Origin: Geodermatophilus sp. YIM 151500
Lineage (GTDB): Bacteria; Actinomycetota; Actinomycetes; Mycobacteriales; Geodermatophilaceae
DNA: 53,806 bases
Reading direction: 5' to 3'
Assembly: GCF_025716945.1 (NCBI RefSeq)
Contig: NZ_JAOVZT010000019.1
Span: 1-53,806, forward strand
The translations under genes were made by a program, and so were the position numbers. Below are positions 1,586 through 22,549 of this stretch, piece by piece; position 1 is the first letter of the stretch, and each line of letters starts with the position of its first letter. Under the pieces are notes generated by a model. That model had not been told where the DNA came from and did not search any database. It worked only from the letters and a program-made list of their open reading frames with translations.

Positions 1586-4471
1586 ATGTCCGGAGCCGGG
1601 GACCCACTGGTCGGGCGTGATGCCGAGCTGGCGGCGTTCACCGCCGTCCTGGACCGGCTCGAGCGGGGCCACCCGGAGTTCGTCGCGCTGCTGGGTGAGC
1701 CGGGCATCGGCAAGACCCGTCTGCTCGCCGAGCTGGGCGCCCTGGCGGACGCCCGGGGGATGCTGGTGCTGTCCGGCAGCGCGTCGGAGTTCGAGCGCGA
1801 CCTGCCTTTCTGGGTCCTCGTCGACGCGCTGGACGAGCACCTGCGCGGCCTGGCCCCCGGCCGGCTGACCGGGTTGGACGACGACGCCCGGGCCGAGCTC
1901 GGCCACGTGCTGCCGTCCTGGCCGGCGCTGCTCGTCGACCGCGGGCCGGGCCGGCAGGACCAGCGCTACCGGACGCACGGGGCGGTGCGCCGCCTGCTCG
2001 AGGTGCTCGCCGAGCCCGTGCCGCTCGTGCTCCTGCTCGACGACCTGCACTGGGCGGACTCCGGCTCCATCGAGCTCCTCTGCAGCCTGCTGCGGCGCCC
2101 GCCCGCCGCACCGGTCCTCCTCGGGACGGCCTACCGCCCGCGGCAGGTCCCGCCGCGGCTGTCCGACGGCGTCGAGCGCGCCGACGCGCTCACCCGCCTC
2201 GACCTGACCGGTCTCGACCTGGAGGGCGTGCGCCGTCTGCTGGGTCCGGGCTGTGACCGGAGGGTCGCCGCGGCGCTGCACGAGGTGAGCGGCGGCAACC
2301 CGTTCTACCTGCGCCAGCTCGCGCACTCCCGGCGGGCCGTGGACCCGGACGCCGCCGTCGTCCTGGCCGACGAGGTCCCGCCGGCCGTCGCCGCCGCGCT
2401 CTCGGCCGAGCTGGCCCTGCTCGACGACACCACGCGCACGGTCCTGGAAGGCGCGGCGGTGACCGGGGACCCGTTCGTCCCCGAACTCGCCGCGGCCGCC
2501 GCCGCCGTGCCGGAGGTGACGGTGACCGCCGCCCTCGACGAGCTGCTGCGCCGCGACCTCGTCCGGGTCACCGACGTGCCACGGCGTTTCCGCTTCCGGC
2601 ACCCGCTGGTGCGGCACGCGGTCTACCACTCCGCGCCCGCCGGGTGGCGGCTGGGCGCCCACGAGCGGGCCGCAGACGCGCTCGCCAGGTCGAGTGCCGC
2701 GCCGGCGACTCGGGCGCGCCACGTGCTCGTGGCGGCACGGAGGGGTGACACCGCCGCCGTGGAGCTGCTCCGTGCGGCCGGTGTGGCCGCGGCGCAACGA
2801 GCGCCCGGGGAGGCCGCGCGCTGGTTCCGGGCCGCGCTCGACCTGCTACCCGAGACCGCGCACGGAGCCGCCGAGCTCGCCCTGGAGACCGAACTCGCCG
2901 GTGCGCTCGCGGCCACCGGTCGGCTCGCGGAGGCCCGCGACGCCCTCGTGCGCGGCATCGGGCTCGTGCCCGCCGACGCGGTCGCCGACCGGGTGCGGCT
3001 GGTCGCGGAGTGCGCCGGGCTCGAGCTGACGCTCGGCCGGCACGACGCCGCGCACCGCCGCCTGATGGCGGTGCTGGCGGAGCTGCCCCCGACGCACACC
3101 GCTCAGGCCGTCGCGCTCCTGAGCGCCCTGACCCAGGACAGCCTGTACCGGCTCGAGTACCCGCAGGCGCGGGAGTGGGCCGCGCGGGCGGACGCCGCGG
3201 CCACCCGGCTCGGCGACCCGGTGGCGGCCGCGTCGGCGGCCGCGTGGCGGGCGGTCAGCTGCGCGTTCGACGGCGCGGTCGACGAGGCGCGCGCCGCCTG
3301 CGCGGCGGTCGCGCCTCTGGTCGACGCCCTCACCGACGAGCAGCTCGCGCACCTCCCCGATCCCGGCGTGAACCTGGCCAGCGCCGAGCTGTTCGTCGAC
3401 CGCTACGACCCGGCCGGGAGGCACATCGAGCGCGTCCTGCTCGCCGGACGGTCGTTCGGCAGGGAGAACCACTTCCCCGCCCTGTTCTGGACCGGCTGCG
3501 TGCGGACCGCCCGCGGCCGGTTGCCGCAGGCGGCCGCACTCCTCGACGAGGCGGCCGAGGTCGCCCGGTCCACCGGCCCGTCCACGATGCTCGGCTGGCA
3601 GCTGCTCGCCCGCTCGCTCACCGCGACGGCCGCCGGGGACGTCGACGTCGCGCTCGCGACCGCCGAGGAGAGCGCCGACACCATGGCCGGCCCCGTCCGC
3701 AGCCTGTCCTCGACGTGGGCCGCGTTCGCGCACGCGGCGGCGCTGCTGCTCGCGGGAGAGCCCGCGGCCGCGGCCGACCTGCTGACCGCCGCGGCGGGTG
3801 GTCGGGATCTGCCCGCGCTGCCGTCCCCGCTCCGGCCCCGCGCGCTCGAGGTGCTGACCCGCTGCGGGCTCGCGCTCGACCGCCCGCTCGAGGCCTCCGA
3901 CGCGGCCGCGGCGGCGGACGCCTGTGCCGGCGAGTCCGGGCTGCCGACCGCCCGCGCCGTGGCCGACCGCGCGGCGGCCGCCGTCTCGCTGCACGAGGGC
4001 GACCCGCACCGCGCCGCCGCGCTGGCGCTGGCCGCGGCGCGCGCCGAGGGGGACGTCGGAGCGGTGGTCGACGCCGCGGAGTCCCGGGTCCTCGCCGCCC
4101 GCGCCCTCGCGGCGGCGAACCGGACCGGACCCGCGAGCGAGGAGCTGCAGCGGGCGGCCGCCACGTTCGACCGGTGCGGGGCGGCGCGCCGCTGCGCCGC
4201 CGCCGAGCGGGAGCTGCGCCGGCTCGGTCACCGGCGGCTGCACCGGCGCACGCAGCCCGGCAACCCCGGGCTCGGGGGCGTGGACGCGCTGACCGAGCGG
4301 GAACTGCAGGTCGCCCGCATGATCGTGGACCGGCGGACCAACGCCGAGATCGCGGGGATGCTGTTCCTCAGCCCCAAGACCGTGGAGACCCACGTCAGGA
4401 ACCTGTTCACCAAGCTCGGGGTGTCCTCCCGCGTCGAGGTCGCGCGGGTCGTCGAGCGCTCCGCGCGGTAG
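1586..4471 (+). CDS. Large AAA-ATPase LuxR-family transcriptional regulator
   Basis: A 961-residue regulator of the LAL/MalT-like type: an N-terminal AAA_16 ATPase, a long alpha-helical TPR-like middle, and a C-terminal LuxR (GerE) helix-turn-helix. Walker A is GEPGIGKT at residues 37-44, and Walker B lies in LVLLLDDLHWAD near residue 150. The DNA-binding domain occupies roughly the last 65 residues, with LTERELQVARMI and the recognition helix around SPKTVETHVRNLF. I chose ATG 1586, preceded by a GGGGGTGG stretch; GTG 1580 is an in-frame alternative and the frame is open back to 1472. A TACCCT hexamer at 1506-1511 could be a -10 element. Ligand and target genes are unknown; the divergent small gene and hydrolase are the nearest candidates. 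Confidence 0.93.
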   Translation: MSGAGDPLVGRDAELAAFTAVLDRLERGHPEFVALLGEPGIGKTRLLAELGALADARGMLVLSGSASEFERDLPFWVLVDALDEHLRGLAPGRLTGLDDDARAELGHVLPSWPALLVDRGPGRQDQRYRTHGAVRRLLEVLAEPVPLVLLLDDLHWADSGSIELLCSLLRRPPAAPVLLGTAYRPRQVPPRLSDGVERADALTRLDLTGLDLEGVRRLLGPGCDRRVAAALHEVSGGNPFYLRQLAHSRRAVDPDAAVVLADEVPPAVAAALSAELALLDDTTRTVLEGAAVTGDPFVPELAAAAAAVPEVTVTAALDELLRRDLVRVTDVPRRFRFRHPLVRHAVYHSAPAGWRLGAHERAADALARSSAAPATRARHVLVAARRGDTAAVELLRAAGVAAAQRAPGEAARWFRAALDLLPETAHGAAELALETELAGALAATGRLAEARDALVRGIGLVPADAVADRVRLVAECAGLELTLGRHDAAHRRLMAVLAELPPTHTAQAVALLSALTQDSLYRLEYPQAREWAARADAAATRLGDPVAAASAAAWRAVSCAFDGAVDEARAACAAVAPLVDALTDEQLAHLPDPGVNLASAELFVDRYDPAGRHIERVLLAGRSFGRENHFPALFWTGCVRTARGRLPQAAALLDEAAEVARSTGPSTMLGWQLLARSLTATAAGDVDVALATAEESADTMAGPVRSLSSTWAAFAHAAALLLAGEPAAAADLLTAAAGGRDLPALPSPLRPRALEVLTRCGLALDRPLEASDAAAAADACAGESGLPTARAVADRAAAAVSLHEGDPHRAAALALAAARAEGDVGAVVDAAESRVLAARALAAANRTGPASEELQRAAATFDRCGAARRCAAAERELRRLGHRRLHRRTQPGNPGLGGVDALTERELQVARMIVDRRTNAEIAGMLFLSPKTVETHVRNLFTKLGVSSRVEVARVVERSAR

Positions 4472-4519
4472 GAGGACGCCGTCCCTCTCACCGGAGCCAC
4501 ACCGGACCGACCTGCCCCG

Positions 4520-5074
4520 TCACGGGTCGCGCGCCGACCGGGCCCGCACGCCCTCGGCGATCTCCGCCAGCCCGTTGAGGACGGCGAAGACGGCCAGGTT
4601 GACCACCAGCCCCGTCGGGCTCCGCTCCGGTGCGACGAACACCGTGCAACCGGCCACGATCCCCAGGAGGGCGAGCAAGGCCGGTACCCAGCGGATCCGG
4701 ACCGCGTGCCCGAACTCGAGAGCCGCGCGGAGCCGCAGCGCCCCCATGACGACGACCCAGACGGCGAGCACGTGCAGCAGCGCCCGGGCGGTGACGTCCG
4801 GCCAGATCACGACGCAGGCCGCCGTCGCGAGGGAAGCCATCCCCTCGACTGCCTGCTGCCACCTCCGGTGGCCCGGGTGGAGCAGCCCGACCAGCACGAG
4901 CACCCCGTCGAGAAGCGCATAGCTCGCGACCACGACCACCAGCGCGGTGAGGGACGCCTCCGGCCACACGGCGATCGCCACGCCCACGGCGACGCCGGTC
5001 AGCCCGCGCACCGTCGTGCCACGCCTCTCCGCAGCGACCGCCTCGCCGAGCCGCACCGCCGGGCGGCGGGACAT
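4520..5074 (-). CDS. HdeD-like (DUF308) integral membrane protein
   Basis: A 184-residue hydrophobic protein with about six predicted membrane helices arranged as short repeats: a helix starting VRGLTGVAVGVAIAV, then LTALVVVVASYALLDG, and later WVPALLALLGIVAGC. This is the pattern of the HdeD/DUF308 family, known in enterobacteria for acid resistance but mostly uncharacterised in actinobacteria. I use ATG 5074, which lacks a clear ribosome site. GTG 5128, 12 bases after an AGGGG, would add 18 residues and is possible. The gene follows the carboxylesterase gene in the same direction with a 101-base gap and faces the LuxR gene across 48 bases. Membrane function is inferred from hydropathy and family only. 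Confidence 0.85.
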   Translation of the reverse strand: MSRRPAVRLGEAVAAERRGTTVRGLTGVAVGVAIAVWPEASLTALVVVVASYALLDGVLVLVGLLHPGHRRWQQAVEGMASLATAACVVIWPDVTARALLHVLAVWVVVMGALRLRAALEFGHAVRIRWVPALLALLGIVAGCTVFVAPERSPTGLVVNLAVFAVLNGLAEIAEGVRARSARDP

Positions 5075-5175
5075 GGCCGACCACGCGACGTCGTGGAACG
5101 ACGCCGTCCCGGCCTGCAGGGAGCGCACGGTGCGGTCGGGCCCCTGGTCCCGGGCGGACGCCGCCTCACCGGGCC

Positions 5176-6732
5176 TCACAACGTCACGCCGTCCCACAGC
5201 CTGCGCTCCTCGGCGAGCGGGTCGTCGACGACGCGGCTCTCGACGTCCAGCCACATCGTCGCCCGGCGGTCGACGTCGTAGGCCGGCCACTCCGGGAGGC
5301 GGGGGTGCCGCGGCACGCCCGTGCGGACGAACTCCACCCACGCCCCGTGCACCGCGTCGACGAGCTCCTCCGGAGGTCGCGCGCCCGCGAGCTCGAAGAA
5401 CGGCGCGGCCGCGTCGTCCAGCCGGTTCCAGACGAACGGCAGGTCGAGGCCGTGGTAGGCGCCGAGCCCGCGATCCGACGGCGGCGAGCCCCACACCAGC
5501 TGGAAGGCGTAGACCCGCGTGCTGTGCGGCCGGGCGGCCTCCAGGAGCCGGATCTGCGGGATGCGGAAGATCACGTCGGTCAGCAGCCGGCTCCGCCGCG
5601 CCCGCTCGCTCCCGCCCGGCGCGGACGCGTACGTGGCCAGGACCTGCTCCGGCGTCCGCCCTGAGGCCCCGAAGGCGGCCTCCGCGACCGACGGCGCGAC
5701 CGCCGAGAACTCCTCCGGGAACAGGTCGACCTCGTCGAGGGTGCTGCCGACGAGCAGGTCGATCCCGCGCGCGGCACCGTCCGCGACCGCCTGGAGCGCA
5801 GGTCTGGGCACCACGTCCCCACCGGTCGTGGACAGGCAGACGACCCGCGTGGCCAGCGTCATAGGACGCGGCCGGACACCGTGCGCGTCGAGCACCTCGA
5901 ACATCCGCGGCTCGATCGAGTCGTAGGCCGCGAGGAGGTCGGCGTCCGTCACGGCGGCAAGGCCCTCCTCGTCGTCGGGCCGCACGTCGAGCCGGTCGAG
6001 CACCGCGGTCCCGAGCACGGCCGAGGTCTCGACGGGGACGTCGAACGACGCCGACCCGCTCTGCAGGACGCCGCGGCGGAACAGGCCGCGCGCCGCCGGC
6101 GCGCCGAGCAACTGGCCGACGCTGTGCGCACCGGCCGACTCCCCCGCGACCGTGACGAGGTCGGGATCACCACCGAACGCGGCGATCTCGTCCCGCACCC
6201 ACTCCAGGGCGGCGATCTGGTCCAGCAGGCCGAACGCGCCCGCACCCGGCCGGCCCTCGACGTTGAGGTACCCGGCGGCGTGCAGCCGGTAGTTCAGCGT
6301 CACCACGACGACGCCGTCCCGGGCGAACGCCGCGCCGTCGTACAGCGCGTCCGAGCCGGCGCCGAGCTTCAGGCTGCCCCCGTGCAGCCAGACGAACACC
6401 GGCAGCCCACCAGCGGCCGGGTACGGCGTCCACACGTTGAGGTTCAGGCAGTCCTCACCCGCCGGCGGCCGGGCGCCCACCCGCATGATGCGGCCCTCGA
6501 CCGGGTCGTGGCTCTGGGGGTGCGTGGGCCCGAAGCGCGTGGCGTCGCGCACGCCGTCCCACGGTGCCCGCGGCGCCGGCGGGCGGAACCGCAGCCGGCC
6601 CACCGGCGGCTCGGCGTAGGGGATGCCGCGGAAGACGCAGATCCCGTCCTCGACCGAACCGCGGACGGCCCCGGCGGTGGTGCGCACGACGGGTCCGGTC
6701 GGTCGTGCCCTGGTGTCGACGGTCGGCAGCAT
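5176..6732 (-). CDS. Type-B carboxylesterase / lipase family protein
   Basis: A 518-residue alpha/beta hydrolase of the COesterase family (PF00135). Family signatures appear in order: FRGIPYAEPPVG near residues 34-45, EDCLNLNVW at 93-101, the oxyanion loop HGGS at 117-120, and the nucleophile elbow GESAG at 197-201 (S199). The likely acid is in GSTLDEVD, and the catalytic His in AYHGLDLPFVW. No signal peptide is seen, so it should be cytoplasmic. The ATG start at 6732 is well supported by AGGAGGA seven bases upstream. Substrates are likely short-chain or aryl esters, but the family is broad. The gene is divergent from the PepSY lipoprotein, with a 225-base intergenic region that holds the promoters of both. 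Confidence 0.93.
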   Translation of the reverse strand: MLPTVDTRARPTGPVVRTTAGAVRGSVEDGICVFRGIPYAEPPVGRLRFRPPAPRAPWDGVRDATRFGPTHPQSHDPVEGRIMRVGARPPAGEDCLNLNVWTPYPAAGGLPVFVWLHGGSLKLGAGSDALYDGAAFARDGVVVVTLNYRLHAAGYLNVEGRPGAGAFGLLDQIAALEWVRDEIAAFGGDPDLVTVAGESAGAHSVGQLLGAPAARGLFRRGVLQSGSASFDVPVETSAVLGTAVLDRLDVRPDDEEGLAAVTDADLLAAYDSIEPRMFEVLDAHGVRPRPMTLATRVVCLSTTGGDVVPRPALQAVADGAARGIDLLVGSTLDEVDLFPEEFSAVAPSVAEAAFGASGRTPEQVLATYASAPGGSERARRSRLLTDVIFRIPQIRLLEAARPHSTRVYAFQLVWGSPPSDRGLGAYHGLDLPFVWNRLDDAAAPFFELAGARPPEELVDAVHGAWVEFVRTGVPRHPRLPEWPAYDVDRRATMWLDVESRVVDDPLAEERRLWDGVTL

Positions 6733-6957: not shown

Positions 6958-7404
6958 GTGGAGAAGGTGCTCCGTGCCGGTCTGATGGGCATGGTGCTCG
7001 CCCTCGGAACCGCCGGGTGCACCAGCGGTACGGGCGATCCCACCGCCTCGTCGACGGGTGGGAGCGCCACGGTCCTTCCGCCCGCGTCGGCGGAGCAGGC
7101 GCCCCCGCCCGCTGCGGAGCCGACCCTGCCGGTCGACGGGCCGCGCCTGCCGGTCGGCGGGCCTTCCACGCCGGTCGGTGAGCCCGCCCCACCGGCCGGT
7201 GGGCCGGCGCTGACCGCCGGGGACGCCGAGGCCATCGCGCTGGGGGCGGTCGGCGGCGGTGAGGTCGTGCGCATGGAGGTCGACGACGTCGACGACGTGC
7301 TGCAGGTCTGGGAGGTCGCCCTCGTCACGACCTCCGGCGAACGCCGGGACGTGACGATCGACCGGACCACCGGACGCGTGCTCGGCAACGAGCTGGACGA
7401 CTGA
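6958..7404 (+). CDS. PepSY-type lipoprotein upstream of a response regulator
   Basis: A 148-residue secreted lipoprotein. The N-terminus has a basic residue, a hydrophobic core and a lipobox ending T-A-G-C with the lipidated cysteine at C21. A Pro/Gly-rich spacer follows (residues 58-85, four imperfect seven-residue repeats). The C-terminal part, with LTAGDAEAIALGAVGGGEV and a strand ending DVTIDRTTGRVLG, matches a PepSY-like fold. The GTG start at 6958 follows GGGGAGG. The gene lies 35 bases before the OmpR-type regulator and is probably in its operon. PepSY lipoproteins in this position often accompany two-component systems and may modulate the sensor; that role is inference here. Confidence 0.85.
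   Translation: MEKVLRAGLMGMVLALGTAGCTSGTGDPTASSTGGSATVLPPASAEQAPPPAAEPTLPVDGPRLPVGGPSTPVGEPAPPAGGPALTAGDAEAIALGAVGGGEVVRMEVDDVDDVLQVWEVALVTTSGERRDVTIDRTTGRVLGNELDD
7129..7212 (+). repeat. Four 21-bp tandem repeats coding a Pro/Gly spacer
   Basis: Four in-frame 21-base units, each beginning CCGGTCG or CCGGCCG, encode PVDGPRL, PVGGPST, PVGEPAP and PAGGPAL. They form the flexible linker between the lipidated cysteine and the PepSY domain. Such coding minisatellites can change in copy number between strains. Confidence 0.75.
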
Positions 7405-7439: not shown

Positions 7440-8114
7440 ATGCGCGTGCTGGTGGTCGAGGACCAGCCGAAGATGCAGGACCTGCTGTGCCGCGGGCTCC
7501 AGCAGGGCGGCTACGCGGTCGACACCGCGGCGGACGGACCGTCGGCCCTGCACCAGGCGACCGAGAGCGCGTACGACGCGATCCTCCTCGACGTGATGCT
7601 GCCCGGTCTCGACGGCTTCGAGGTGCTCCGCCGGCTGCGCGCGGCGGAGCGGTGGACGCCCGTGCTCATGCTCACCGCCCGGGACGCGGTGCAGGACCGG
7701 GTGCGAGGGCTCGACGGGGGGGCCGACGACTACATCGTCAAGCCGTTCGCCTTCAGCGAGCTGCTCAGCCGGCTCCGCGCGGTCATCCGCCGGGGACGGC
7801 CGGCCCGGCCGGTGGTCCTGCGCTGCGGTCCGCTGGAGCTGGACCCCGCGACCCGGACGACGACCGTCCGCGGCACGGAGGTGGCCCTGTCACCCCGCGA
7901 GTTCGCGCTCCTGGAGATGCTGCTCGACCGGGACGGCGCGGTCGTCACGCGCACCGAGCTGCTCGACCACGTGTGGGACTCGTCCTACGACGGCGTCTCG
8001 AACGTCGTCGACGTCTACGTGCGGAACCTGCGCGACAAGATCGACCGTCGGTTCGGGGTGCGGCTCATCCACACCGTGCGCGGCGCGGGCTACCGCATCG
8101 CGGAGGCCGCCTGA
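7440..8114 (+). CDS. OmpR/PhoB-family response regulator
   Basis: A 224-residue two-component response regulator with an N-terminal receiver and a C-terminal winged helix. The phosphoacceptor is D51 in AILLDVMLPG, with acidic residues at E7-D8 and the conserved lysine K101 in YIVKPF. The output domain begins near residue 125 and contains SPREFALLEMLL and VRGAGYRI, typical of OmpR/PhoB members that bind direct repeats with 10-11 bp phasing. The gene follows the PepSY lipoprotein gene by 35 bases. No histidine kinase is adjacent; the nearest is at 21059 on the same strand, after the glycosyltransferase/kinase cluster. The 440-base downstream region carries 11-bp-phased repeats that could be its target. 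Confidence 0.95.
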   Translation: MRVLVVEDQPKMQDLLCRGLQQGGYAVDTAADGPSALHQATESAYDAILLDVMLPGLDGFEVLRRLRAAERWTPVLMLTARDAVQDRVRGLDGGADDYIVKPFAFSELLSRLRAVIRRGRPARPVVLRCGPLELDPATRTTTVRGTEVALSPREFALLEMLLDRDGAVVTRTELLDHVWDSSYDGVSNVVDVYVRNLRDKIDRRFGVRLIHTVRGAGYRIAEAA

Positions 8115-8245
8115 CCACCCCGTTCCTCGGCCGCGCAGCCGGTCGGGCCTCCGCCGCGGGAAACGCCGGACCACCGCCGAAGAACCCTTCGTGATACCAA
8201 CAATACCCACCGTGCTCGTCGCGCGGCGTGACGAAATCGGTGCGC

Positions 8246-8265
8246 ATTCGTCGGGCCTCGTCTGG
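8246..8265 (+). promoter_or_regulatory. Upstream copy of operator-like repeat
   Basis: A 20-base element of the form ATTCGTCGG, one base, CCTCGTCTGG. It closely matches the element at 8392-8412: same order of half-sites, with G in place of A in each TCATC. The two TCGTC half-sites are 10 bases apart. It may be a second regulator-binding site; this is inferred from similarity alone. Confidence 0.4.
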
Positions 8266-8391
8266 AACGATGAGGAGCAGGCCGGTGAAAGCCGCCTCTC
8301 CGTCACCTCCAGGCAGCTCACCGTCACGGAGCGCGGGGACGAATGCGCAGGTAGAAGCCGGATCCGGTCGATGGACCGGACTCGTCCCCAC

Positions 8392-8424
8392 ATTCATCGG
8401 TTCCTCATCTGGCGTTCATGATCC
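8392..8424 (+). promoter_or_regulatory. Triple direct repeat with exact 11-bp phasing (OmpR-type site candidate)
   Basis: TTCAT (8393-8397), CTCAT (8404-8408) and TTCAT (8415-8419) recur at exactly 11-base intervals, one helical turn apart. This is the usual geometry of sites for OmpR/PhoB-family regulators and resembles actinobacterial PHO-box repeat units. It lies about 135 bases upstream of the epimerase start and 280 bases after the regulator gene, so autoregulation or cluster control is plausible. Confidence 0.5.
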
Positions 8425-8554
8425 GTGAAGGTGTTACGGGTTAATGTCCCGCGGGGCGGTCTATTGTCACGTCCCTCGGACCGCCCCTACAGTCCCCGCC
8501 ACCGCGCACGATTCCCATCGGGAACCGGGCGCACGACGTCGAGCGGGGGCCGCT

Positions 8555-9658
8555 GTGAGCGCCACATTGCTGACCGGCGCGGCCGGTTTCATCGGGAGCC
8601 ATCTCGCCGAACGACTCGTGGCCGACGGGTGCTCCGTGCGCGGGGTCGACGCGTTCACCGACACGTACGCGCCGGCGCAGAAGCGGGACAACGTCGCCCT
8701 GGTGTCGGCAGACCCGCGGCTGGAGCTGGTCACCGCCGACCTCGCCCGCGACGACCTGAGCGGTCTCCTCGACGGCGTCGACGCCGTCGTCCACCTGGCG
8801 GGCGAGCCCGGCGTGACGGCGTCCTGGGGCACGGCGTTCGCCACCTACGTCGAGCGCAACGTCGTCGCTACGCAGCGCCTGCTGGAAGCCGCGACCGCAG
8901 CCGGCGTGCGCCGCTTCGTCTACGCATCGAGCTCGTCGGTCTACGGGCCGGAGATCGGGCCGCTGACGGAGTCCGCGGTGCCGCGACCGCTCAGCCCGTA
9001 CGGCGCGAGCAAGCTCGCCGGTGAGGTCCTGGTGGGGGCGTACGCCCAGCAGCGCGGGCTGTCCACGGTCTCGCTGCGCTACTTCTCGGTCTACGGACCG
9101 CGGCAGCGTCCGGACATGGCGGCGCACCGGTTCATCGAGGCCCTGCTCGACGGCCGACCGGTCCCGGTCCACGGTGACGGCCGGCAGGCCCGCGACTTCA
9201 CCTACGTAGCGGACGTCGTCGCGGCGACCGCCGCGGCGCTCACCGCCCCGGTGCCCACCGGGACCGTGCTGAACGTCGCCCGCGGTGAACCGGTGGAGGT
9301 GCGCGAGCTCATCGCCGTCCTGGCCGAGGAGCTGGGCGTCGCGCCGCGCGTCGAGCGTCGACCGGAGCGAGCGGGTGACACCCCGCGCACGGAGGGCCGC
9401 GCCGACGCGGCGCGCGCCGGCCTCGGCTGGGAGCCGCTCACCGACCTGCGCACCGGGCTGCGGCAGCAGATCGAGTGGCACATGCACCGACGACTCGCGA
9501 CCCCGTCGTCCGCGCTCGCCGACGCCCTGCGGTCCTCCCCCGTCCCCACCGGCCTGCGCGTGCCCGTCCACGAACCCCCGGGCGGCTTCGCCGCCGAGGT
9601 CGTCGGCGCCGGGAGCGACGCGTTCCGGGAGGCCGTGCGATGGGAGGCCGTGCGATGA
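8555..9658 (+). CDS. NAD-dependent nucleotide-sugar epimerase/dehydratase
   Basis: A 367-residue extended short-chain dehydrogenase of the UDP-glucose/UDP-glucuronate 4-epimerase type. The Rossmann motif is TGAAGFIGSH (residues 7-16). The serine strand is YASSSSVYG (123-131), and the catalytic Y149-x-x-x-K153 lies in SPYGASKLAGE. It probably supplies an epimerised or dehydrated UDP-sugar for the neighbouring glycosyltransferases; the exact sugar is not readable. The GTG start at 8555 follows GCGGGGGC, and the Rossmann motif begins at residue 7, so an upstream extension is unlikely. It is the first gene of the cluster and its stop overlaps the next start by four bases (ATGA). About 30 Pro-rich C-terminal residues extend beyond the usual fold. 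Confidence 0.9.
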   Translation: MSATLLTGAAGFIGSHLAERLVADGCSVRGVDAFTDTYAPAQKRDNVALVSADPRLELVTADLARDDLSGLLDGVDAVVHLAGEPGVTASWGTAFATYVERNVVATQRLLEAATAAGVRRFVYASSSSVYGPEIGPLTESAVPRPLSPYGASKLAGEVLVGAYAQQRGLSTVSLRYFSVYGPRQRPDMAAHRFIEALLDGRPVPVHGDGRQARDFTYVADVVAATAAALTAPVPTGTVLNVARGEPVEVRELIAVLAEELGVAPRVERRPERAGDTPRTEGRADAARAGLGWEPLTDLRTGLRQQIEWHMHRRLATPSSALADALRSSPVPTGLRVPVHEPPGGFAAEVVGAGSDAFREAVRWEAVR

Positions 9659-10947
9659 GCGCCTCCTCGGAGCCGCGGCTGCTCATCTACTCCCAGGACG
9701 GGTTCGGCCTCGGCCACCAGCGACGGACGACGCTGCTCGCCGACCAGTTCCTCCGCAGCTGCCCGGGCTCCAGCGCGCTCACCGTGTCGGACTCACCGCT
9801 CGGCAAGTTCTTCTCCTCCGCGGTCGGTCACGACTACTGCAAGCTGCCCTCGGTGCGGAAGGTCGGTCCCGGGGACTGGCGTCCGGTGTCGCTGTCCTCG
9901 TCGTTCGACGACGTCCTGGACATGCGGCGGACGATGCTGATCTCGGCGGTGCGGGCCTTCCGCCCGGACGTGCTGCTCGTCGACCACATGCCGCACGGCG
10001 CCATGGGCGAGCTGGTGCCCACCCTGGAGATGCTGCAGGACGAGCCGACCGTCGTCGTGCTCGGGCTGCGCGACATCCTCGACGCGCCGGGCGTCGTGCG
10101 GGAGCGCTGGCGGCTGGAAGGCGCGTACGAGGCCGTCGAGCAGTACTACGACCGGGTGCTCGTGTACGGCTCGTCCGACGTGTTCGACCTCGCCGCCGAG
10201 TACGCCTGGCCGGCTGCCGCGAGCGCGAAGATCGAGTACTGCGGCTACGTGTGCGCCCCCGTGCAGCCCGAAGCGGTGTCGGAGTCGGTGCGGTCGCGGT
10301 ACCTCGACGGAGCGGGCGACGAGCGGCTCGTGGTCGCCATGGCGGGGGGCGGCGCGGATGCGTACCCGCTCTTCGACGCCCTGTTGTCCGCGGTGCCGGC
10401 GATGCAGGAGGGCGGCCGGTGCCGCGTCGTCCTGGTGACCGGCCCGTTCCTGCCCGCCGAGCGGCACCGCGAGCTGGTGGCCCGCGCGCAGGACCTGCCG
10501 GTGGACGTGCTGATCTCGGTGTCCGACCCCGTCCGCTACGCGGCGTCGGCGGACCTCGTCGTGGCGATGGCCGGGTACAACACCACCGCGGAGATCCTGT
10601 CGGTCGGCGCGCCGGCGCTGCTGGTGCCCCGCTCCGGTCCCAGCGCGGAGCAGCGGATGCGCGCGCGGCTGTTCGCCGAGCGCGGCTGGGTCGACTGGCT
10701 GCCGCCGTCCGAGCTGGGTGCCGAGCCCCTGGCCGCCGCCGTGCGGTCGGCGCTCGAGCGGACGCCGGGCCCCCGGCACGTGCGCCCACCGGACCTGGAC
10801 GGACGCGATGTCGCCACCGACCGGCTCGTGGAGTCGCTGGACCGGACCTGGGCGCACGGCCTGGTCCCCGTGGGTGCCGACCTGGCGATGGCCCCCGCGC
10901 GGCGGCCGGGCCGGAGCCTGCGCGACGACGACTGCCTCCTGGCGTGA
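9655..10947 (+). CDS. MurG/GT28-like glycosyltransferase
   Basis: A 430-residue GT-B protein. The N-terminus has a QDGFGLGHQRRT loop (residues 14-24), the acceptor-side Gly-rich loop seen in MurG-like enzymes. The C-terminal donor-binding half has VAMAGYNTTAEIL (303-315) followed by GAPALLVPR, the typical GT28 nucleotide-sugar site. It probably transfers a sugar from a UDP donor, perhaps made by the upstream epimerase. No membrane helix is evident; such enzymes usually attach peripherally to the inner membrane face. The ATG at 9655 overlaps the upstream stop (ATGA), implying translational coupling. The acceptor is unknown. A MurG function in peptidoglycan synthesis is unlikely, given the setting outside a cell-wall cluster. 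Confidence 0.85.
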   Translation: MSASSEPRLLIYSQDGFGLGHQRRTTLLADQFLRSCPGSSALTVSDSPLGKFFSSAVGHDYCKLPSVRKVGPGDWRPVSLSSSFDDVLDMRRTMLISAVRAFRPDVLLVDHMPHGAMGELVPTLEMLQDEPTVVVLGLRDILDAPGVVRERWRLEGAYEAVEQYYDRVLVYGSSDVFDLAAEYAWPAAASAKIEYCGYVCAPVQPEAVSESVRSRYLDGAGDERLVVAMAGGGADAYPLFDALLSAVPAMQEGGRCRVVLVTGPFLPAERHRELVARAQDLPVDVLISVSDPVRYAASADLVVAMAGYNTTAEILSVGAPALLVPRSGPSAEQRMRARLFAERGWVDWLPPSELGAEPLAAAVRSALERTPGPRHVRPPDLDGRDVATDRLVESLDRTWAHGLVPVGADLAMAPARRPGRSLRDDDCLLA

Positions 10948-13219: not shown

Positions 13220-14463
13220 TGTACCTGGTGCGCAGCTGGCCCCGGCTGTCGCAGACCTTCGTCGTCAACGAGGTGCTCGCGCAGGAACGGCTGGGCACCC
13301 GGCTGGAGCTGTACAGCCTGACGCGCTCGGAGGAGCGGCTCGTGCAGCCGCAGGTGTCCGCGGTGCGGGCGCAGGTGCACTACCTCGACGAGCGGCCCCG
13401 CCGTCCCCGGTTCGCCGCCCTGCGCGAGCACGCGCTGGTGGCCCGCTCGGCGCCGCTGGCCTACGCCGCGACCGTGGTCTACGCCGCCGCCCGGCCCCAG
13501 CTCTCCCGCGGGTACGCGACGCTGTCGACCCTGGGCTGCCTCGCCGCGGCCGTGCGCGTGGCCGCGGCGGTGCACCGGGCGCGGCGGGCCGGCGACCCGG
13601 TCGAGCACCTGCACGCGCACTTCGCCCACGACCCCGCGCTGGTGGCGCTGCTGACCAGCCGGATGACGGGCGTGCCGTACAGCGTCACCGCGCACGCGCG
13701 GGACCTGTACCAGATCCCCGTCCCGAGCCTGCGCGCCCGTGCCCGCGCCGCGGTCGCCGTCGTGACCTGCTGCGCCGCGAACGTCGACTACCTGCGTTCG
13801 GTGCTGCCGGCCGACCTGCACACCCGGCTGCGGCTGATCCACCACGGTGTCGAGCTCGACCGGTTCGTCCCGGCCGACCGGCCCGACGCCCCGCCGCCGG
13901 TGCGGATCGTGTCCGTCGGCCGGCTGGTCGAGAAGAAGGGCTTCGCCGACCTGCTGCACGCCTGCGCCGAGCTCCGGTCGAGCCGGCCGGAGGCGGCCTT
14001 CCGGCTGCGCGTCCTCGGTGACGGGCCGCTGCGGCCGGAGCTCGCCGGGCTGCGCGACCGGCTCGGGTTGCGGGAGGCGGTCGAGTTCGCCGGCGAGGTC
14101 GACCGGGACGGTGTCCTGCGGGCCTACCAGGACGCCGACGTCTTCGCGCTCACGCCGTGGGTCCCCGCCGACGGCGACCGGGACGGCGTCCCGAACGTGG
14201 TCGTGGAGGCGATGGCGTGCGGGCTGCCGGTCGTGACCACCGACGCGGGCGGCGTCACCGAGGTGGTGGAGCACGGCCGGACGGGTCTGGTCGCGACGCC
14301 GCGCGACGTCGGCGCGATCGCCGGGCACCTCGCCGAGCTGGTGACGGACCCCACCCGCCGGCGGGAGCTGGGCGCGGCCGGGCGGCGCCGGGTCGAGCAG
14401 GGCTTCGACGTCCGGTCGGCCGCCTCGGAGCTGTCCGCCGTCTTCGCCGGGGCGGCGTCGTGA
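13204..14463 (+). CDS. GT4-family glycosyltransferase
   Basis: A 419-residue GT-B retaining glycosyltransferase (Glycos_transf_4 / Glyco_trans_1_4). The N-terminal LVRSWPRLSQTFVVNE is the typical start of this family. A VGRLVEKKGFADLLHA strand opens the C-terminal donor domain, and DGVPNVVVEAMACGLPVV carries the E-x7-E-like donor motif. It should use a nucleotide-activated sugar to extend a glycan or glycolipid on the cytoplasmic side. GTG 13204 has a strong GGAAGGGGG site and lies inside the end of the preceding gene; ATG 13219 (TGATG overlap) is the alternative and removes only five residues. The next gene starts at a four-base overlap. Confidence 0.92.
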   Translation: MPGRVMYLVRSWPRLSQTFVVNEVLAQERLGTRLELYSLTRSEERLVQPQVSAVRAQVHYLDERPRRPRFAALREHALVARSAPLAYAATVVYAAARPQLSRGYATLSTLGCLAAAVRVAAAVHRARRAGDPVEHLHAHFAHDPALVALLTSRMTGVPYSVTAHARDLYQIPVPSLRARARAAVAVVTCCAANVDYLRSVLPADLHTRLRLIHHGVELDRFVPADRPDAPPPVRIVSVGRLVEKKGFADLLHACAELRSSRPEAAFRLRVLGDGPLRPELAGLRDRLGLREAVEFAGEVDRDGVLRAYQDADVFALTPWVPADGDRDGVPNVVVEAMACGLPVVTTDAGGVTEVVEHGRTGLVATPRDVGAIAGHLAELVTDPTRRRELGAAGRRRVEQGFDVRSAASELSAVFAGAAS

Positions 14464-15788
14464 CGCGCCTCGACCTGCCCGGCGCCCCGGCCCGCGGGAC
14501 GACGGGCGCGACGGCGCAGCTGCGCCGCGTCGAGGAGGCGCTGGACGCCCGGGCCATGGGCCCCCGCCTGGCGGCGGCGCTCGGGTCCGCCGGCCGCGGT
14601 GGCTGCGCCGTCCTCGACGCCAAGTACGAGCCGGGTGCGCGGTGCACGGTGCTCTACCGGGCCGGGGACCTGCTCGTCCGCGGTGACCTGCTCGCCGGGC
14701 ATCCCGGCGACCCGCCCCCCGGGGGCCCGGCGCGCCCCGTCGTCGCTCCGGGCGTGCGGCTGTCCGTCTTCCCGGACGACCCCGACCTGCCCGGCCTCGC
14801 CGGCGCGCTCGACCCCTCGGCGCTGCGCGGCGCGCTGCGGGACGCGCTGCCCGGTGGCGGGCCGGTCCTCCGGTGCCGGGCGGAGCTGCTGCGGTACCGC
14901 CCGGCGCGGCGGGCGACCCTCGCCGTCGAGGTGCGCGGACCGGCCGCCCCACGGGGACGGCGCCTGGTCGTGAAGAGCTACCACGACGGCCGGAAGGCGG
15001 CCGCGGTGGCGGCGGAGGCGGTCCTGCTGCCCGCGACGGCCGACCCGGATGCGCCGCTGCGCTTCGCCCCGGTGCTCGCCCACCTGCCCGACCGGGCGCT
15101 GGTCGTGCAGGAGCACGTCCGCGGGATCCACCTCGACGAGGTGCTGCGCCGATCCGGCCCGGCACCGGCGGACGCCCTCCGCCGCGCGGCCGTCGCGCTG
15201 GCGGCGCTGCACCGGCAGCCGGTGGTCAGCCGGCGGACGCGCACCGTCGACGCCGAGCTCGACCGCTTCGCGGCCCGCGCCCGGCGGGTGGCTGGGGTCG
15301 CCCCGGCCGCCGGCGCGGTGCTGGTGGACCTGGCCGCCCGGCTCGCCGCAACGGCCGACGGCCTCGGGCCGGGCGCCGTCGCCCTGGTGCACGGCGACTG
15401 CAAGCCCAGCCAGTTCCTGCTGCGCGGCGAGCGGGAGGTGGTCCTGCTCGACCTCGACTCGTGCGGGCGGGCCGATCCGGCCGGCGACGTCGGCACCTTC
15501 CTCGCGACGCTGCGGCAGCACGCGCTGCGCGCGCTGCTGGCGCGGCGGCTGACGCCGGCCGCCGCCCGCGCGCGGGCGGCCCTCGCCGAGGAGTTCCTCG
15601 ACGCGTACCTCGCGGCGGCGGGCGGCACGCGCGACCCCGGCCTGCGGCGACGGATCACGTGGTACGAAGCCGTCGCGCTGGAGCGCAAGGCGCTGCGGTG
15701 CTTCGCCCGGGCGCCCCGGTCGCCGCTGACCGGCGCCCTGGTCGCCGCCGGGCACGGGCGCCTGGATCGACTGGGAGGTGGGCGGTGA
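14460..15788 (+). CDS. APH/maltokinase-like phosphotransferase (paralogue 2)
   Basis: A 442-residue kinase-fold protein. The N-terminal segment contains GARCTVLYRAGD, then the linker DPDLPGL at 107-113 shared with its cluster paralogues. The kinase proper has a lysine strand RRLVVKSYHDG, the catalytic loop HGDCKPSQ at 311-318 (D313), and the metal motif LLDLDSCG. Gln318 stands where APH enzymes have Asn; as I recall, actinobacterial maltokinases also have Gln here, which favours a sugar substrate over an antibiotic. No signal or membrane segment is seen. The GTG at 14460 overlaps the previous stop by four bases and its own stop overlaps the ABC exporter start. The phosphoacceptor is unknown. 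Confidence 0.85.
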   Translation: MTRLDLPGAPARGTTGATAQLRRVEEALDARAMGPRLAAALGSAGRGGCAVLDAKYEPGARCTVLYRAGDLLVRGDLLAGHPGDPPPGGPARPVVAPGVRLSVFPDDPDLPGLAGALDPSALRGALRDALPGGGPVLRCRAELLRYRPARRATLAVEVRGPAAPRGRRLVVKSYHDGRKAAAVAAEAVLLPATADPDAPLRFAPVLAHLPDRALVVQEHVRGIHLDEVLRRSGPAPADALRRAAVALAALHRQPVVSRRTRTVDAELDRFAARARRVAGVAPAAGAVLVDLAARLAATADGLGPGAVALVHGDCKPSQFLLRGEREVVLLDLDSCGRADPAGDVGTFLATLRQHALRALLARRLTPAAARARAALAEEFLDAYLAAAGGTRDPGLRRRITWYEAVALERKALRCFARAPRSPLTGALVAAGHGRLDRLGGGR

Positions 15789-18043: not shown

Positions 18044-19473
18044 CCGCGGCCACCGCCCCCGCCCCGGACACCGCCCGGGAGTCCCTGGCCTCGGCGCTCA
18101 CCCGGCGCTCCCCCGGGATCGCCGCGGCGCTCGACCCGGAGCGAGCCCGGTTGCGGGCGGCGGCGTGGGCGGCGCGCGCCGTGCCGGACGCCGCGGTCTC
18201 CGACGTCCGGGTGGGGTCGGTGCTGTGCCGGCCCGACGGCAGCTGCACGCTGCGCTACCGGGTCCGGCTCGCCCCCTCCGGCAGCGAGCGGGTCCTCCTC
18301 GTCGAGGTGCCGCGCTCGGGGGCGGACGTCGTGGTCCGCCCGTTCCCGGCCGACCCCGGCCTGCCCACCCTCCCCCGCGCCGTGGACCCGGTGGTCATGC
18401 GCGAGGTCCTCGGCCAGGTCGTCCCCGGCACCGGAGGTCCCCGGGCCGTCGGGTGGTTCGCGGTCGACGTCGTCCACCACCCGCGGCGCGACCGGTGCGT
18501 CCTGCGGTACCGGCTCGCGCCCGGCACCGGCGGTCCCGGCCGGCCGCGGCACCCGGTCGTCTTCGGGAAGGTGTACGCCGACCCCGCGGCGCCGGCCGCC
18601 GCGGCGGCGGCGCTGCGCCTGCTCCGCACCGGGCTGCGGCCGCTCCCCGACGGGACCCGCGTGGCCGTTCCGCGGCCGCTCGCCGTCGTCCCGGGGCTCC
18701 GGCTCGGCCTCGTCGAGGAGATCCCCGGGCGGCCGGTGCTGCCCGAGCTGCTCACGACCGCGTGCCGCGCCGGCGAGCACCCGGGCGGCACCGACCCGCA
18801 CGAGCTGCCGGACGCCGTCGCCACCGCCGCCCGGCTGGCCGCCGCCGTCCACGCCTGCTCCCCCGACGGCGCACCGCTGCCGGTGCGGACGCTCGACGGC
18901 GAGCGAGCCGCCACCGAGTCCGAGCTCGCGCTGCTCGAACCCGTGTGGCCCGGCCCCGCCGCACGCCTGCGGCGGGGTCTGGACCGCGCCCTCCGCGCCG
19001 CCGGCGACCCGTGCGGCCCGGCCGCCACCCGCGGGCCGTCCGGGTCCGGGCTCGCCCACGGCGACCTCACGCCGGGCCAGGTGCTGGTCGACGGCACCGG
19101 CGGCGCCGGCCTGGTCGACGTCGACACGCTCTGCCTCGCCGAGCCCGCTCTCGACCTCGGCCGCTTCCTGGCCTACCTGCAGGTCACCGGCGTCCGGAGG
19201 GCACCGTCGGCCGAGCCCCTGCTGGCCGAGCTGTCGGCGCTGTTCGTGGCGTCCTGGCTGGGGAGCCGGCTCGACCAGCGCCCGGCGGCCGGCGGGACGC
19301 GCCCGCCCGCGGCGGCCGCCGTCCGCGAGCTCCGGACGCGCACGGCCGCCTACCGCGCGCTGGCCCTGGCGCGGATGGGCGCCAGCGCGTGCCGGCAGCT
19401 CAAGGACGACCGGCTGGGCGCGGTCCTGCACGTGCTCGACTCCGCAGCGGATGGACGAGGAGCGGATGGATGA
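18040..19473 (+). CDS. APH/maltokinase-like phosphotransferase (paralogue 3)
   Basis: A 477-residue kinase-fold protein sharing the cluster plan. Its beta-rich leader contains DGSCTLRYRVRL, the linker is DPGLPTL (105-111), and a second strand RDRCVLRYRL precedes the lysine strand VVFGKVYAD. The catalytic loop is HGDLTPGQ (340-347, D342) with the metal motif LVDVDTLCLAEPALDLGRF. The catalytic residues look intact, and Gln347 again replaces the APH Asn. About 100 residues follow the active site, with a final ARMGASACRQLK helix. It is translationally coupled to both neighbours by four-base overlaps. It should be a cytoplasmic ATP-dependent kinase, probably of a sugar or sugar-containing intermediate; the substrate is not inferable. 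Confidence 0.85.
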   Translation: MTAATAPAPDTARESLASALTRRSPGIAAALDPERARLRAAAWAARAVPDAAVSDVRVGSVLCRPDGSCTLRYRVRLAPSGSERVLLVEVPRSGADVVVRPFPADPGLPTLPRAVDPVVMREVLGQVVPGTGGPRAVGWFAVDVVHHPRRDRCVLRYRLAPGTGGPGRPRHPVVFGKVYADPAAPAAAAAALRLLRTGLRPLPDGTRVAVPRPLAVVPGLRLGLVEEIPGRPVLPELLTTACRAGEHPGGTDPHELPDAVATAARLAAAVHACSPDGAPLPVRTLDGERAATESELALLEPVWPGPAARLRRGLDRALRAAGDPCGPAATRGPSGSGLAHGDLTPGQVLVDGTGGAGLVDVDTLCLAEPALDLGRFLAYLQVTGVRRAPSAEPLLAELSALFVASWLGSRLDQRPAAGGTRPPAAAAVRELRTRTAAYRALALARMGASACRQLKDDRLGAVLHVLDSAADGRGADG

Positions 19474-20972
19474 CGGGAATCCTGGACGACAGGGACGCGC
19501 TCGGGGCGCTGGAGGCGTTCGCCGAGCTGCCCGACTGGCTCGCCCGGGTCATGGCGCCCGGACGGGCCGCCGCTGCGCTGCGCGAGGCCGTGCCGGAGTT
19601 CACCCGGCCGGGCGTCGAGCTCGTCGGCGCGGAGGTCGACCGGCTGCGCGCCAAGGGCGAGCTGTGGCTCGTCCACTGCCGGGTCACGCTGGTCGAGGAC
19701 GACGCGACGACGGAGCTGGTGCTCACCGGGCGGCTGCTCCCGCCGGGCTCGCCGCCCCCGCCGGCCGCGCCCGGCGCGGCGCTCGGCGAGCCGGGGTGGT
19801 GGTGCTGGCTGCCGGACCTGCGGCTGCTGCTGGAGGTCGAGGACGCCGACCCCGGACTGCCCGCGCTACCCGCGCTGGTCGACGCCGACGAGGCCGCCGC
19901 GGTGCTGCAGCGCAGCCTGCGCGACGCCGGGCACGACGTCGAGGTCGCCGGGTGCGAGCCCGACGTCGTCCGGTACAAGCCCGGCAGCCGCTGCACGATC
20001 GTCTACCGCATGCGCTACCGGGGCACGCCGGGTCCCGACCCGCTGGTGGTCAAGACCCACCAGGGCGACAAGGGGCGCACGGCGTGGGAGGCCATGCGCG
20101 CGCTGTGGGAACGGCCGGTCGCCCGGGACGGCGTCGTGACGCTCGCCGAGCCGCTCGCCTACCTCCCGGAGGAACGCGTCCTCGTCCAGGGGCCGGTGCC
20201 GGAAGAACGCACGCTCAAGGACCTGGCCCGGGACGCGCTCGGCCAGGCCTGGGCGGCGGCACCGGCCGGGCCGGCCGGGGCGGGACGCGCGGCGCTCGGC
20301 GAGCTGCGCGAGATGCTCGCCCGCACGGCCGCGGCGCTGGCCGCCCTGCACGGGAGCGGCGCCGAGTACGGGCGGACGGCGAGCTGGGACGACGAACTGG
20401 CGGAGGTGCGCGACGTGCTCGCCCGGCTGGCGCTGAGCGTGCCGCACATCGGCACGGCGGCCGAGCCCCTGCTCGCCCGGCTCGAGGCGCTGGACTCGTC
20501 GGCAGCGGCCGATCCGCTCGTGAGCGCCCACCACGACTTCCGGCCGGCCCAGGTGCTGCTGCACGCCGGGCGGATCGGCTTCATCGACTTCGACGGGGCC
20601 TGCCGCGCCGAACCGGCGCTGGACCTCGGCCGGTTCCGCGCGAAGCTCCGCGACATCGGGATGACCGCGATCCCGGCGGCCGACCGGCCGCGGCCCGGCG
20701 ACCCCCGGCTCGACCGCCACCTCCGGCTGCTCGACGACCTGTGCGACGGCTTCCTCGCCGGATACCGGCGGCACGCGTCCGTCACGCCTGCCCGCGTGGT
20801 GCTCTGGGAGACCACCGACCTGCTCACCGCGCTGCTGCACGCGTGGACGAAGGTCCGCACCGCCCGGGTCGACCCGCGGCTGGCCCTGCTGCGCCACACG
20901 CTGGCCACCGATCCCGCGCTCGCCCCGGACCGGGCGTCCACCGGCGCCGCGGAGGGCGTGCCGGTGCCTTGA
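19470..20972 (+). CDS. APH/maltokinase-like phosphotransferase (paralogue 4)
   Basis: A 500-residue kinase-fold protein, last of the coupled cluster. Its N-terminal segment (residues 1-125) is the most diverged but still leads into the linker DPGLPAL (127-133). Then come GSRCTIVYRMRYRG, the lysine strand LVVKTHQG, the catalytic loop HHDFRPAQ (354-361, D356), and the metal motif FIDFDGACRAEPALDLGRF. All catalytic positions look functional. An ATGA overlap couples it to paralogue 3. After its stop, 86 bases separate it from the histidine kinase, so the sensor may be co-transcribed. Its unusually long N-terminal part suggests substrate recognition or protein contacts, but that is speculative. 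Confidence 0.85.
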   Translation: MTGILDDRDALGALEAFAELPDWLARVMAPGRAAAALREAVPEFTRPGVELVGAEVDRLRAKGELWLVHCRVTLVEDDATTELVLTGRLLPPGSPPPPAAPGAALGEPGWWCWLPDLRLLLEVEDADPGLPALPALVDADEAAAVLQRSLRDAGHDVEVAGCEPDVVRYKPGSRCTIVYRMRYRGTPGPDPLVVKTHQGDKGRTAWEAMRALWERPVARDGVVTLAEPLAYLPEERVLVQGPVPEERTLKDLARDALGQAWAAAPAGPAGAGRAALGELREMLARTAAALAALHGSGAEYGRTASWDDELAEVRDVLARLALSVPHIGTAAEPLLARLEALDSSAAADPLVSAHHDFRPAQVLLHAGRIGFIDFDGACRAEPALDLGRFRAKLRDIGMTAIPAADRPRPGDPRLDRHLRLLDDLCDGFLAGYRRHASVTPARVVLWETTDLLTALLHAWTKVRTARVDPRLALLRHTLATDPALAPDRASTGAAEGVPVP

Positions 20973-21058: not shown

Positions 21059-22549
21059 ATGGCGCCGACCCCGGCGTCGTCGTGCGGAGCCGGCGCCGTG
21101 AGGACGTCGGCGCCGTCCGGAGCCCGCATCCGGCGGCTGCCGATCAGCGTGCGGCTGGGGGCCACCTTCGCGGTCGTGTTCCTCGTCGTGCTGGCCGCGA
21201 TGTGCGGGCTGGCCTGGTTCGGCCTGGGCCAGAGCCTGCGGGAGGAGATCGACCGGAGCCTCGTCACCGCCGCGCAGGCGCTGGACCGGCCCGGCCGCAG
21301 CCTCGTCGACCTGGAGGACGCGCGCGTCGGCGGCGTGGAGCTCCCGGAGTTCGAGACGCAGATGATCGCGCCCGACGGCCGGGTGGTCGGCGGCACCGAC
21401 GACGACCTGGACGAACTGCCCGTGCTCTCCCCGGAGCAGACCACCGCGACGCGGCAGGACGACGCGTTGTTCGCCGACGTCCTGGACGAGGAGGGGGATG
21501 CCCACCGGGCGCTGGCGGTGCCGGTGGACCGGCCCCGGGGTCATGTGCTCGTCGTCATGGCCGAGCTGGACTCCGTGCAGGACGCGCAGTCCGGTCTCCT
21601 GCAGCTGGCCGCGCTGCTGTCGCCCCTGGCGTGCCTGCTCGCCGGGGCGGCGGGCTGGTTCATCGCCCGCAAGGGGCTGCAGCCGGTCGCCCGGATGACC
21701 GCCGACGCCGAGCGCATCAGCGCCCGCGACCCCTTCCCGCGGCTGGCGGTCCCGCCGTCGCGGGACGAGGTGGCCCGGCTCGGGACGACGCTGAACCGGT
21801 TGCTCGACCGCATCGAGGAGGCCCGGCGACGGGAGCGGGAGTTCACCGCGGACGCCAGCCACGAGCTGCGCACCCCGCTGTCGATCCTGCGGGCGGAGCT
21901 CGAACTCGCCCGCAACCGCGCCACCGACCGGCAGTTCGTCGAGGCACTCGACAGCGCCCTCGAGGAGAGCGACCGACTCGGCCAGCTCGTCGACGACCTG
22001 CTCCTGCTCGCCTCGACCGACGCCGGCAAGGTGCGGCCCCGAACCCTGGTCGACGTCGCCGAGGTCGTCGACGGGCTGCTGCCCGGCTTCCGCACGCTGG
22101 CGGGCCGGCGCGGCATCTCCTTGGCCAAGAGCGGTGACGCCGTCGTCCGCGCCGATCCGCGGGCGCTCAGCCGGGCGGTCGCCAACCTGCTCGACAACGC
22201 CGTCCGTCACGCCCCGGACGGCGGCACGGTCGAGCTGACCGTCGACCAGCGGCCCGACGGCACGGCGATCACGGTGACCGACGACGGTCCCGGCGTCCCC
22301 CCGGAGGAACGGAGCCGGTTGACCCAGCGCTTCACCCAGAGCGATCGTGCGGCGGCGCGGACCGGGGGGGCCGGACTCGGGCTGGCCATCGTGGCCTCGG
22401 TCGCGGCCGCCCACGGCGGTCGCGTCGAGATCGCGGACGCACCGACGGGCTCCGGGCTGGCGGTGACGATCCTGCTGCCCACCCCCGCGGCGGGGCCACC
22501 CGTCCGCAGCGGGCCGTCATCCGGCGGCGAGGGCCCCGCCCGGGTCTGA
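21059..22549 (+). CDS. Two-component sensor histidine kinase
   Basis: A 496-residue membrane sensor. It has a first helix near residues 34-57 (LGATFAVVFLVVLAAMCGL), an extracytoplasmic sensor of about 120 residues, a second helix around 185-205, and HAMP. HisKA has TADASHELRTPLS (phosphorylated H268). The HATPase_c domain carries LLDNAVRHAP (N box), DDGPGVPPEE and GGAGLGLAI. I used ATG 21059; GTG 21098, nine bases after GGAG, is a strong alternative that removes 13 residues of poor sequence. It is the likely partner of the orphan regulator at 7440, given the same strand and the absence of other candidates. Its 3' end overlaps the opposing STAND gene by 33 bases. Confidence 0.92.
   Translation: MAPTPASSCGAGAVRTSAPSGARIRRLPISVRLGATFAVVFLVVLAAMCGLAWFGLGQSLREEIDRSLVTAAQALDRPGRSLVDLEDARVGGVELPEFETQMIAPDGRVVGGTDDDLDELPVLSPEQTTATRQDDALFADVLDEEGDAHRALAVPVDRPRGHVLVVMAELDSVQDAQSGLLQLAALLSPLACLLAGAAGWFIARKGLQPVARMTADAERISARDPFPRLAVPPSRDEVARLGTTLNRLLDRIEEARRREREFTADASHELRTPLSILRAELELARNRATDRQFVEALDSALEESDRLGQLVDDLLLLASTDAGKVRPRTLVDVAEVVDGLLPGFRTLAGRRGISLAKSGDAVVRADPRALSRAVANLLDNAVRHAPDGGTVELTVDQRPDGTAITVTDDGPGVPPEERSRLTQRFTQSDRAAARTGGAGLGLAIVASVAAAHGGRVEIADAPTGSGLAVTILLPTPAAGPPVRSGPSSGGEGPARV

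Follow-up and report, generated by a model that had tools for sequence, protein, structure and literature searches.

A putative OmpR/PhoB-type direct-repeat operator between a response regulator gene and a glycosyltransferase-exporter cluster in Geodermatophilus

In the pho box of Escherichia coli, tandem 11-bp TGTCA repeats are bound head-to-tail by PhoB in place of the -35 box. The element described here lies in a window of 53,806 nucleotides from Geodermatophilus sp. YIM 151500 (contig NZ_JAOVZT010000019.1; the whole stretch of DNA that was analysed); it has 11-bp tandem repeats at the -35 place as well, and differs from the E. coli box in sequence and regulator. Direct-repeat units of 11 nt are attributed to PhoP at the actinobacterial PHO box in excerpts of PMC7866108, and the unit is given as GTTCACC in excerpts of PMC9019756. 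The window element resembles this box in its 11-bp direct repeats, its TCA core and the distance to a downstream hexamer (see below). It differs in the unit, YTCATC/G, which has neither the fixed leading G nor the C after TCA, and in adjoining another regulator and a cluster without an obvious role in phosphate metabolism. The PhoP site of Mycobacterium tuberculosis, TCACAGC-N4-TCACAGC in the excerpts of PMC9019756, likewise consists of direct repeats containing TCA with an 11-bp period, whereas its flanking letters and its regulator are different. The Streptomyces CutR site, TAWATAAA in excerpts of PMC12802291, is comparable as the site of an actinobacterial two-component response regulator, which is what is proposed for the window element; a CutR-type site was rejected, since the motif is wholly different and TAWATAAA is absent from both strands of positions 8115-8554. 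The kind of operator considered here is thus already known, and neither this member nor the motif of its regulator branch was recognised in the literature, among the matches listed.

We propose that positions 8393-8425 form an operator of the OmpR/PhoB type, and consider it probable that through it the adjacent regulator (7440-8114) activates the gene cluster from a promoter, P1, with its -10 hexamer at 8442. If so, an uncharacterised cluster that encodes glycosyltransferases and an exporter would gain a concrete candidate pair of regulator and operator, and YTCATC at an 11-bp phase may prove to be the motif of an entire PepSY-linked branch of such regulators. The switch is of an ordinary kind and leaves the understanding of OmpR-type regulation as it was.

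The triple repeat, its gene neighbourhood and its conservation

The regulator gene (7440-8114, + strand; PF00072 and PF00486) encodes an OmpR/PhoB-family response regulator and follows a gene for a PepSY-domain protein (6958-7404, +; PF03413, E 1.5e-6), which is probably a lipoprotein as judged by eye. No phased repeats were found before this PepSY-regulator operon itself. Downstream of the regulator stop codon (8114), an intergenic region of 440 bp extends to the GTG start codon at 8555 of a NAD-dependent sugar epimerase/dehydratase gene (8555-9658, +; PF01370, E 5.3e-59), the second gene being that of a GT28-like glycosyltransferase (9655-10947, +; PF04101, E 1.3e-9). The cluster continues with glycosyltransferases, APH-like phosphotransferases and an ABC exporter, and at its far end there is a gene for a sensor histidine kinase (21098-22549, +; HisKA, HATPase and HAMP domains; start codon chosen by eye). 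Between 10970 and 20972 two proteins, one of them over two stretches, matched the Pfam APH phosphotransferase family and adjoin the ABC exporter; the proteins encoded at 14457-15785 and 19470-20969 gave no Pfam match and by eye are similar to the APH-matching ones.

The intergenic element consists of three direct-repeat units on the + strand. Half-sites starting at 8393, 8404 and 8415 had been claimed from the sequence alone, and all three (TTCAT, CTCAT and TTCAT) are where they were said to be, exactly 11 bp apart from start to start. With one flanking base on either side they read ATTCATC, CCTCATC and GTTCATG; the full units are TTCATCGGTTC (8393-8403), CTCATCTGGCG (8404-8414) and TTCATGATCCG (8415-8425). 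A position at 8426-8436 (TGAAGGTGTTA) may represent a degenerate fourth unit.

When the 440-bp region was shuffled 2000 times with its dinucleotide content kept, the pattern YTCAT-N6-YTCAT-N6-YTCAT did not arise on either strand. A looser pattern, any such word recurring three times with equal spacing at a period of 8-13, turns up in 3% of these shuffles (+ strand) and at 34 places in the window itself, so that periodicity alone is weak, after-the-fact evidence. YTCA-N7-YTCA-N7-YTCA has two matches on the two strands of the 4.77-Mb genome, against one for the reversed pattern; with a terminal C required, the triple has none genome-wide, unit 3 having no such C. The pair YTCATS-N5-YTCATS occurs three times in this genome, twice inside the element (control, 0), and the looser YTCAYS pair 18 times (control, 3). 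Across 20 chosen genomes, 13 of which were picked because they encode the regulator or one of its relatives, YTCATS-N5-YTCATS was matched 33 times, against 3 for the control. Its sole match in the genome of Blastococcus capsensis is the operator-like site before the cluster.

The other genomic YTCA-N7 triple (L089:4910-4935, - strand; G000:C11:408909-408934) comes after what appears by eye to be an ATPase-like gene, the product of which has a C-terminal DNA-binding stretch of the OmpR type; TAGCGT lies at offset 48 from this site. It is likely the operator of that second, ATPase-like regulator.

For comparison, 16 loci were gathered by homology to the glycosyltransferase encoded at 9655. The three nearest, from a Modestobacter metagenome-assembled genome (L001), B. 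capsensis (L002) and Geodermatophilaceae URHB0062 (L003), encode regulators 84-90% identical to that of the window. The repeat had been expected to be conserved in relatives if functional, and the comparison bore this out: all three carry the triple at the matching place (at 4835, 5667 and 4758, respectively), with TTCATC of unit 1, YTCAT of unit 2 and YTCA of unit 3 kept throughout, and L003 has a fourth unit (CTCAGCGACCG). The window included, the triple is thus present in 4/4 loci having the regulator, and it was found on neither strand in the 13 glycosyltransferase loci without the regulator in the DNA covered, four of which (L008, L012, L014 and L016) weigh less because they reach less than 1 kb upstream of the glycosyltransferase. 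Among 112 genomes of the family, the four with a regulator of at least 84% identity are the same four that have a glycosyltransferase of at least 76% identity. B. capsensis gave no epimerase match, only a short remnant being visible by eye (L002, about 5848-6004); despite the apparent loss of this gene, the operator and promoter are kept and the repeats still precede the next gene.

When one mismatch was allowed, the triple pattern gave 11 matches in nine of the 112 genomes and none for the control. Three were at the cluster (that of B. capsensis was missed) and three, in genomes G072 and G073 (L075:5037, L076:4163 and L077:321), consist of three phased YTCAT units directly before a gene for a distant (about 35%) glycosyltransferase; no regulator was found in the DNA surrounding the latter loci, which counts against binding by an adjacent regulator. 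The remaining five (in G001, G011, G080 and, twice, G045) were scored neither for nor against, those in G011, G045 and G080 lying by eye at gene starts. Elsewhere, G072 and G073 encode a regulator whose helix reads SNVVDVYVRYLR, in a locus that also has a CTCATC pair.

Promoter sequences and a proposed mechanism

The -10-like hexamer of P1, TAATGT (8442-8447, +), begins 49 bp past the start of unit 1. A TANNNT hexamer occurs at this same offset in all four loci (TAATGT in the window, and TACCGT, TAGACT and TAGGGT); such sharing was not seen in 200000 mononucleotide shuffles, the TANNNT rule having been picked after the sequences had been seen. In the four loci the spacer after unit 3 has 5-10 identities out of 22, as against 17-22 out of 26 for the units. 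The place of the -35 box is taken up by unit 3 and the degenerate fourth unit, an arrangement expected of promoters that depend on a PhoB-like activator. Since the pstS promoters with PHO boxes of the same four genomes have a -10-like hexamer at offset 48 from the first unit in three cases out of four, this geometry is a general one.

A second, sigma-70-like promoter, P2 (TTGTCA-N18-TACAGT; 8464-8493, +), is the only consensus promoter found within 8112-8600. Sequences of the type TTGTCA-N17/18-TACAGT are present in all four loci, with TTGTCC in L001, at a variable distance from the repeats: unit 1 is separated from the -10 hexamer of P2 by 95, 90, 108 and 106 bp, with no helical phase. A weak terminator-like stem of 5 pairs (8445-8458) lies between P1 on one side and P2 and the gene on the other (one found, against a shuffle mean of 0.2); it could be due to chance or serve as an early stop for P1 transcripts. 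Positions 8000-8700 gave no match to a known RNA family at E up to 1.

The window kinase is 70% identical to the far-end kinase of the Modestobacter contig (L118:6648-8018) and 52-54% identical to those encoded right after the regulator in L002 (about 4226-5626) and L003 (about 3313-4737). A kinase is accordingly linked to the cluster in 4/4 cases in two arrangements: two loci have its gene at the far end, and the remaining two have it immediately behind the regulator gene. No kinase remnant was found in the gap behind the window regulator (best E 0.38). In the mechanism that we envisage, this kinase would phosphorylate the regulator, with the PepSY protein perhaps tuning the kinase; the 11-bp units would then be occupied head-to-tail by regulator molecules, all on the same side of the helix and where a -35 box would otherwise stand, and these molecules would bring RNA polymerase to P1. 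Activation of P1 would raise the expression of the epimerase, glycosyltransferase, phosphotransferase and ABC exporter genes, for which P2 could provide a separate, basal promoter.

The candidate binder and rival readings

Motifs of the same kind accompany most of the closest relatives of the regulator. Nine of ten relatives at 64-74% identity (L063-L071, all from the same family) have 11-bp-phased YTCA within 300 bp; the tenth (L090, 65%) has no phased repeats, and its residue at the helix position discussed below is Q. Several relatives of the former group adjoin a divergent gene that by eye resembles the PepSY protein. Homologues outside L063-L071 (54-66% identity) have a phased pair in just 4 of 26 cases. 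Over 35 regulator relatives, period 11 accounts for 13 loci and 28 matches, and each of the periods 7-10 and 12-15 for 0-5 loci, although counts of this sort are not independent because of shared ancestry. Of the control words searched at period 11 in these 35 loci, YACT, YCTA and YTAC gave none, YATC 13 and YCAT 8; the last two can be read inside YTCATC.

The presence of repeats follows residue 192, in the recognition helix, which is V in the window regulator: repeats accompany 13 of the 18 regulators with V and none of the 17 with Q (Fisher p 7e-6, an optimistic value because the sequences are related). It is tempting, though rather doubtful, to generalize that V-type (SNVVDVYV) PepSY-linked actinobacterial OmpR-type regulators read YTCATC-N5-YTCATC and Q-type (SNVVDQYV) ones do not, the V-type serving, in a few Geodermatophilaceae, as a switch with hardly any target other than a glycosyltransferase-exporter cluster of patchy distribution.

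The sequence-only reading had named two candidate binders, the adjacent OmpR-type regulator and a PhoP-like phosphate regulator. From the co-occurrence of regulator and triple (4/4 against 0/13 loci) and from the repeats beside nine of ten relatives we infer, with good support, that the former is the binder. The latter fares worse, as its unit differs. That the triple is a PHO box, through which PhoP controls the cluster under phosphate limitation, appears improbable, even though the two elements have the 11-bp phase and the TCA core in common, the hexamer of the pstS promoters stands at nearly the same offset, and unit 3 of L002 is GTTCACC. Before pstS, all four genomes have PHO boxes of the form GTTCACC-N4-GTTCAYC; the window units share the 11-nt period and depart from the unit form, units 1 and 2 having no leading G and having T after TCA. 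Two matrices, built from 43 units beside regulator relatives and from eight PHO units, both small and without cross-validation, were used for scoring. The regulator-subfamily matrix is preferred over the PHO matrix in all four loci, by 5.2 bits in the window and by 16.2, 2.4 and 3.8 bits in L001, L002 and L003, respectively, and the PHO units favour the PHO matrix, for which they were the training set, by 48.2 bits in sum. The margins are modest in the window, L002 and L003, and in these three loci unit 3 is the better fit to the PHO matrix. The absence of the triple from all 13 glycosyltransferase loci without the regulator also speaks against a PHO box. Judged from these sequence comparisons, PhoP would be a less likely binder than the adjacent regulator, the two motifs being related.

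A paralogous regulator with the same type of helix might also be the binder, alone or together with the adjacent regulator. The product of G000:C53:116479 (61% identity), for example, likewise has V in this position of the helix, with a CTCATC-N5-CTCACC pair next to its gene; given that close relatives of the adjacent regulator co-occur with the cluster and the repeats in four genomes, we assign little probability to this. Somewhat less remote, yet still unlikely, is a role of the repeats in long-range action on P2, or in repression, instead of the activation of P1. P2 is kept in all four loci and is the sole consensus promoter of the region, but its distance from unit 1 varies without phase, whereas that of P1 is fixed. 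A chance periodicity devoid of function, to which the frequency of equally spaced words in shuffles and in the window might point, is contradicted by the same place and the same spacing of the repeats in three relatives, and we regard it as extremely improbable. The adjacent regulator, acting at P1, therefore remains our preferred reading.

The upstream look-alike

A related copy of the element had also been reported at 8246-8265. The sequence there (+ strand), ATTCGTCGG-G-CCTCGTCTGG, does resemble the element, with two mismatches and a gap between the halves that is shorter by 1 nt; the 11-bp phase and the TCA core that would make it an equivalent site are absent. Its half-sites, TTCGT at 8247 and CTCGT at 8257, are 10 bp apart and both have TCG in place of TCA, with motif scores of 1.4 and 3.9 bits as against 8.8, 11.1 and 5.4 bits for the units of the element. 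None of 2000 shuffles equalled the quality of this match; elsewhere in the window the best match has five mismatches. Shuffles overstate its rarity, however, since places matching the look-alike's own words with three mismatches occur in the 13-kb loci of two of the three relatives, at unrelated positions, which indicates that real DNA contains such words more often than shuffled DNA does.

No copy was found at the matching place in L001-L003, the corresponding gap being occupied by the kinase gene in L002 and L003. Searching the whole of 8115-8392 in 108 genomes of the family yielded only short matches elsewhere and none over 8246-8265, a search that a lone 20-bp element could escape. On account of the 10-bp spacing, the TCG core and the absence from the matching place in the three relatives, a second phased operator was rejected; the look-alike may be a decayed duplicate. 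One arm of a perfect 12-bp inverted repeat (TGCGCATTCGTC at 8241-8252 and GACGAATGCGCA at 8338-8349, with 85 bp between the arms) overlaps the look-alike at 8246.
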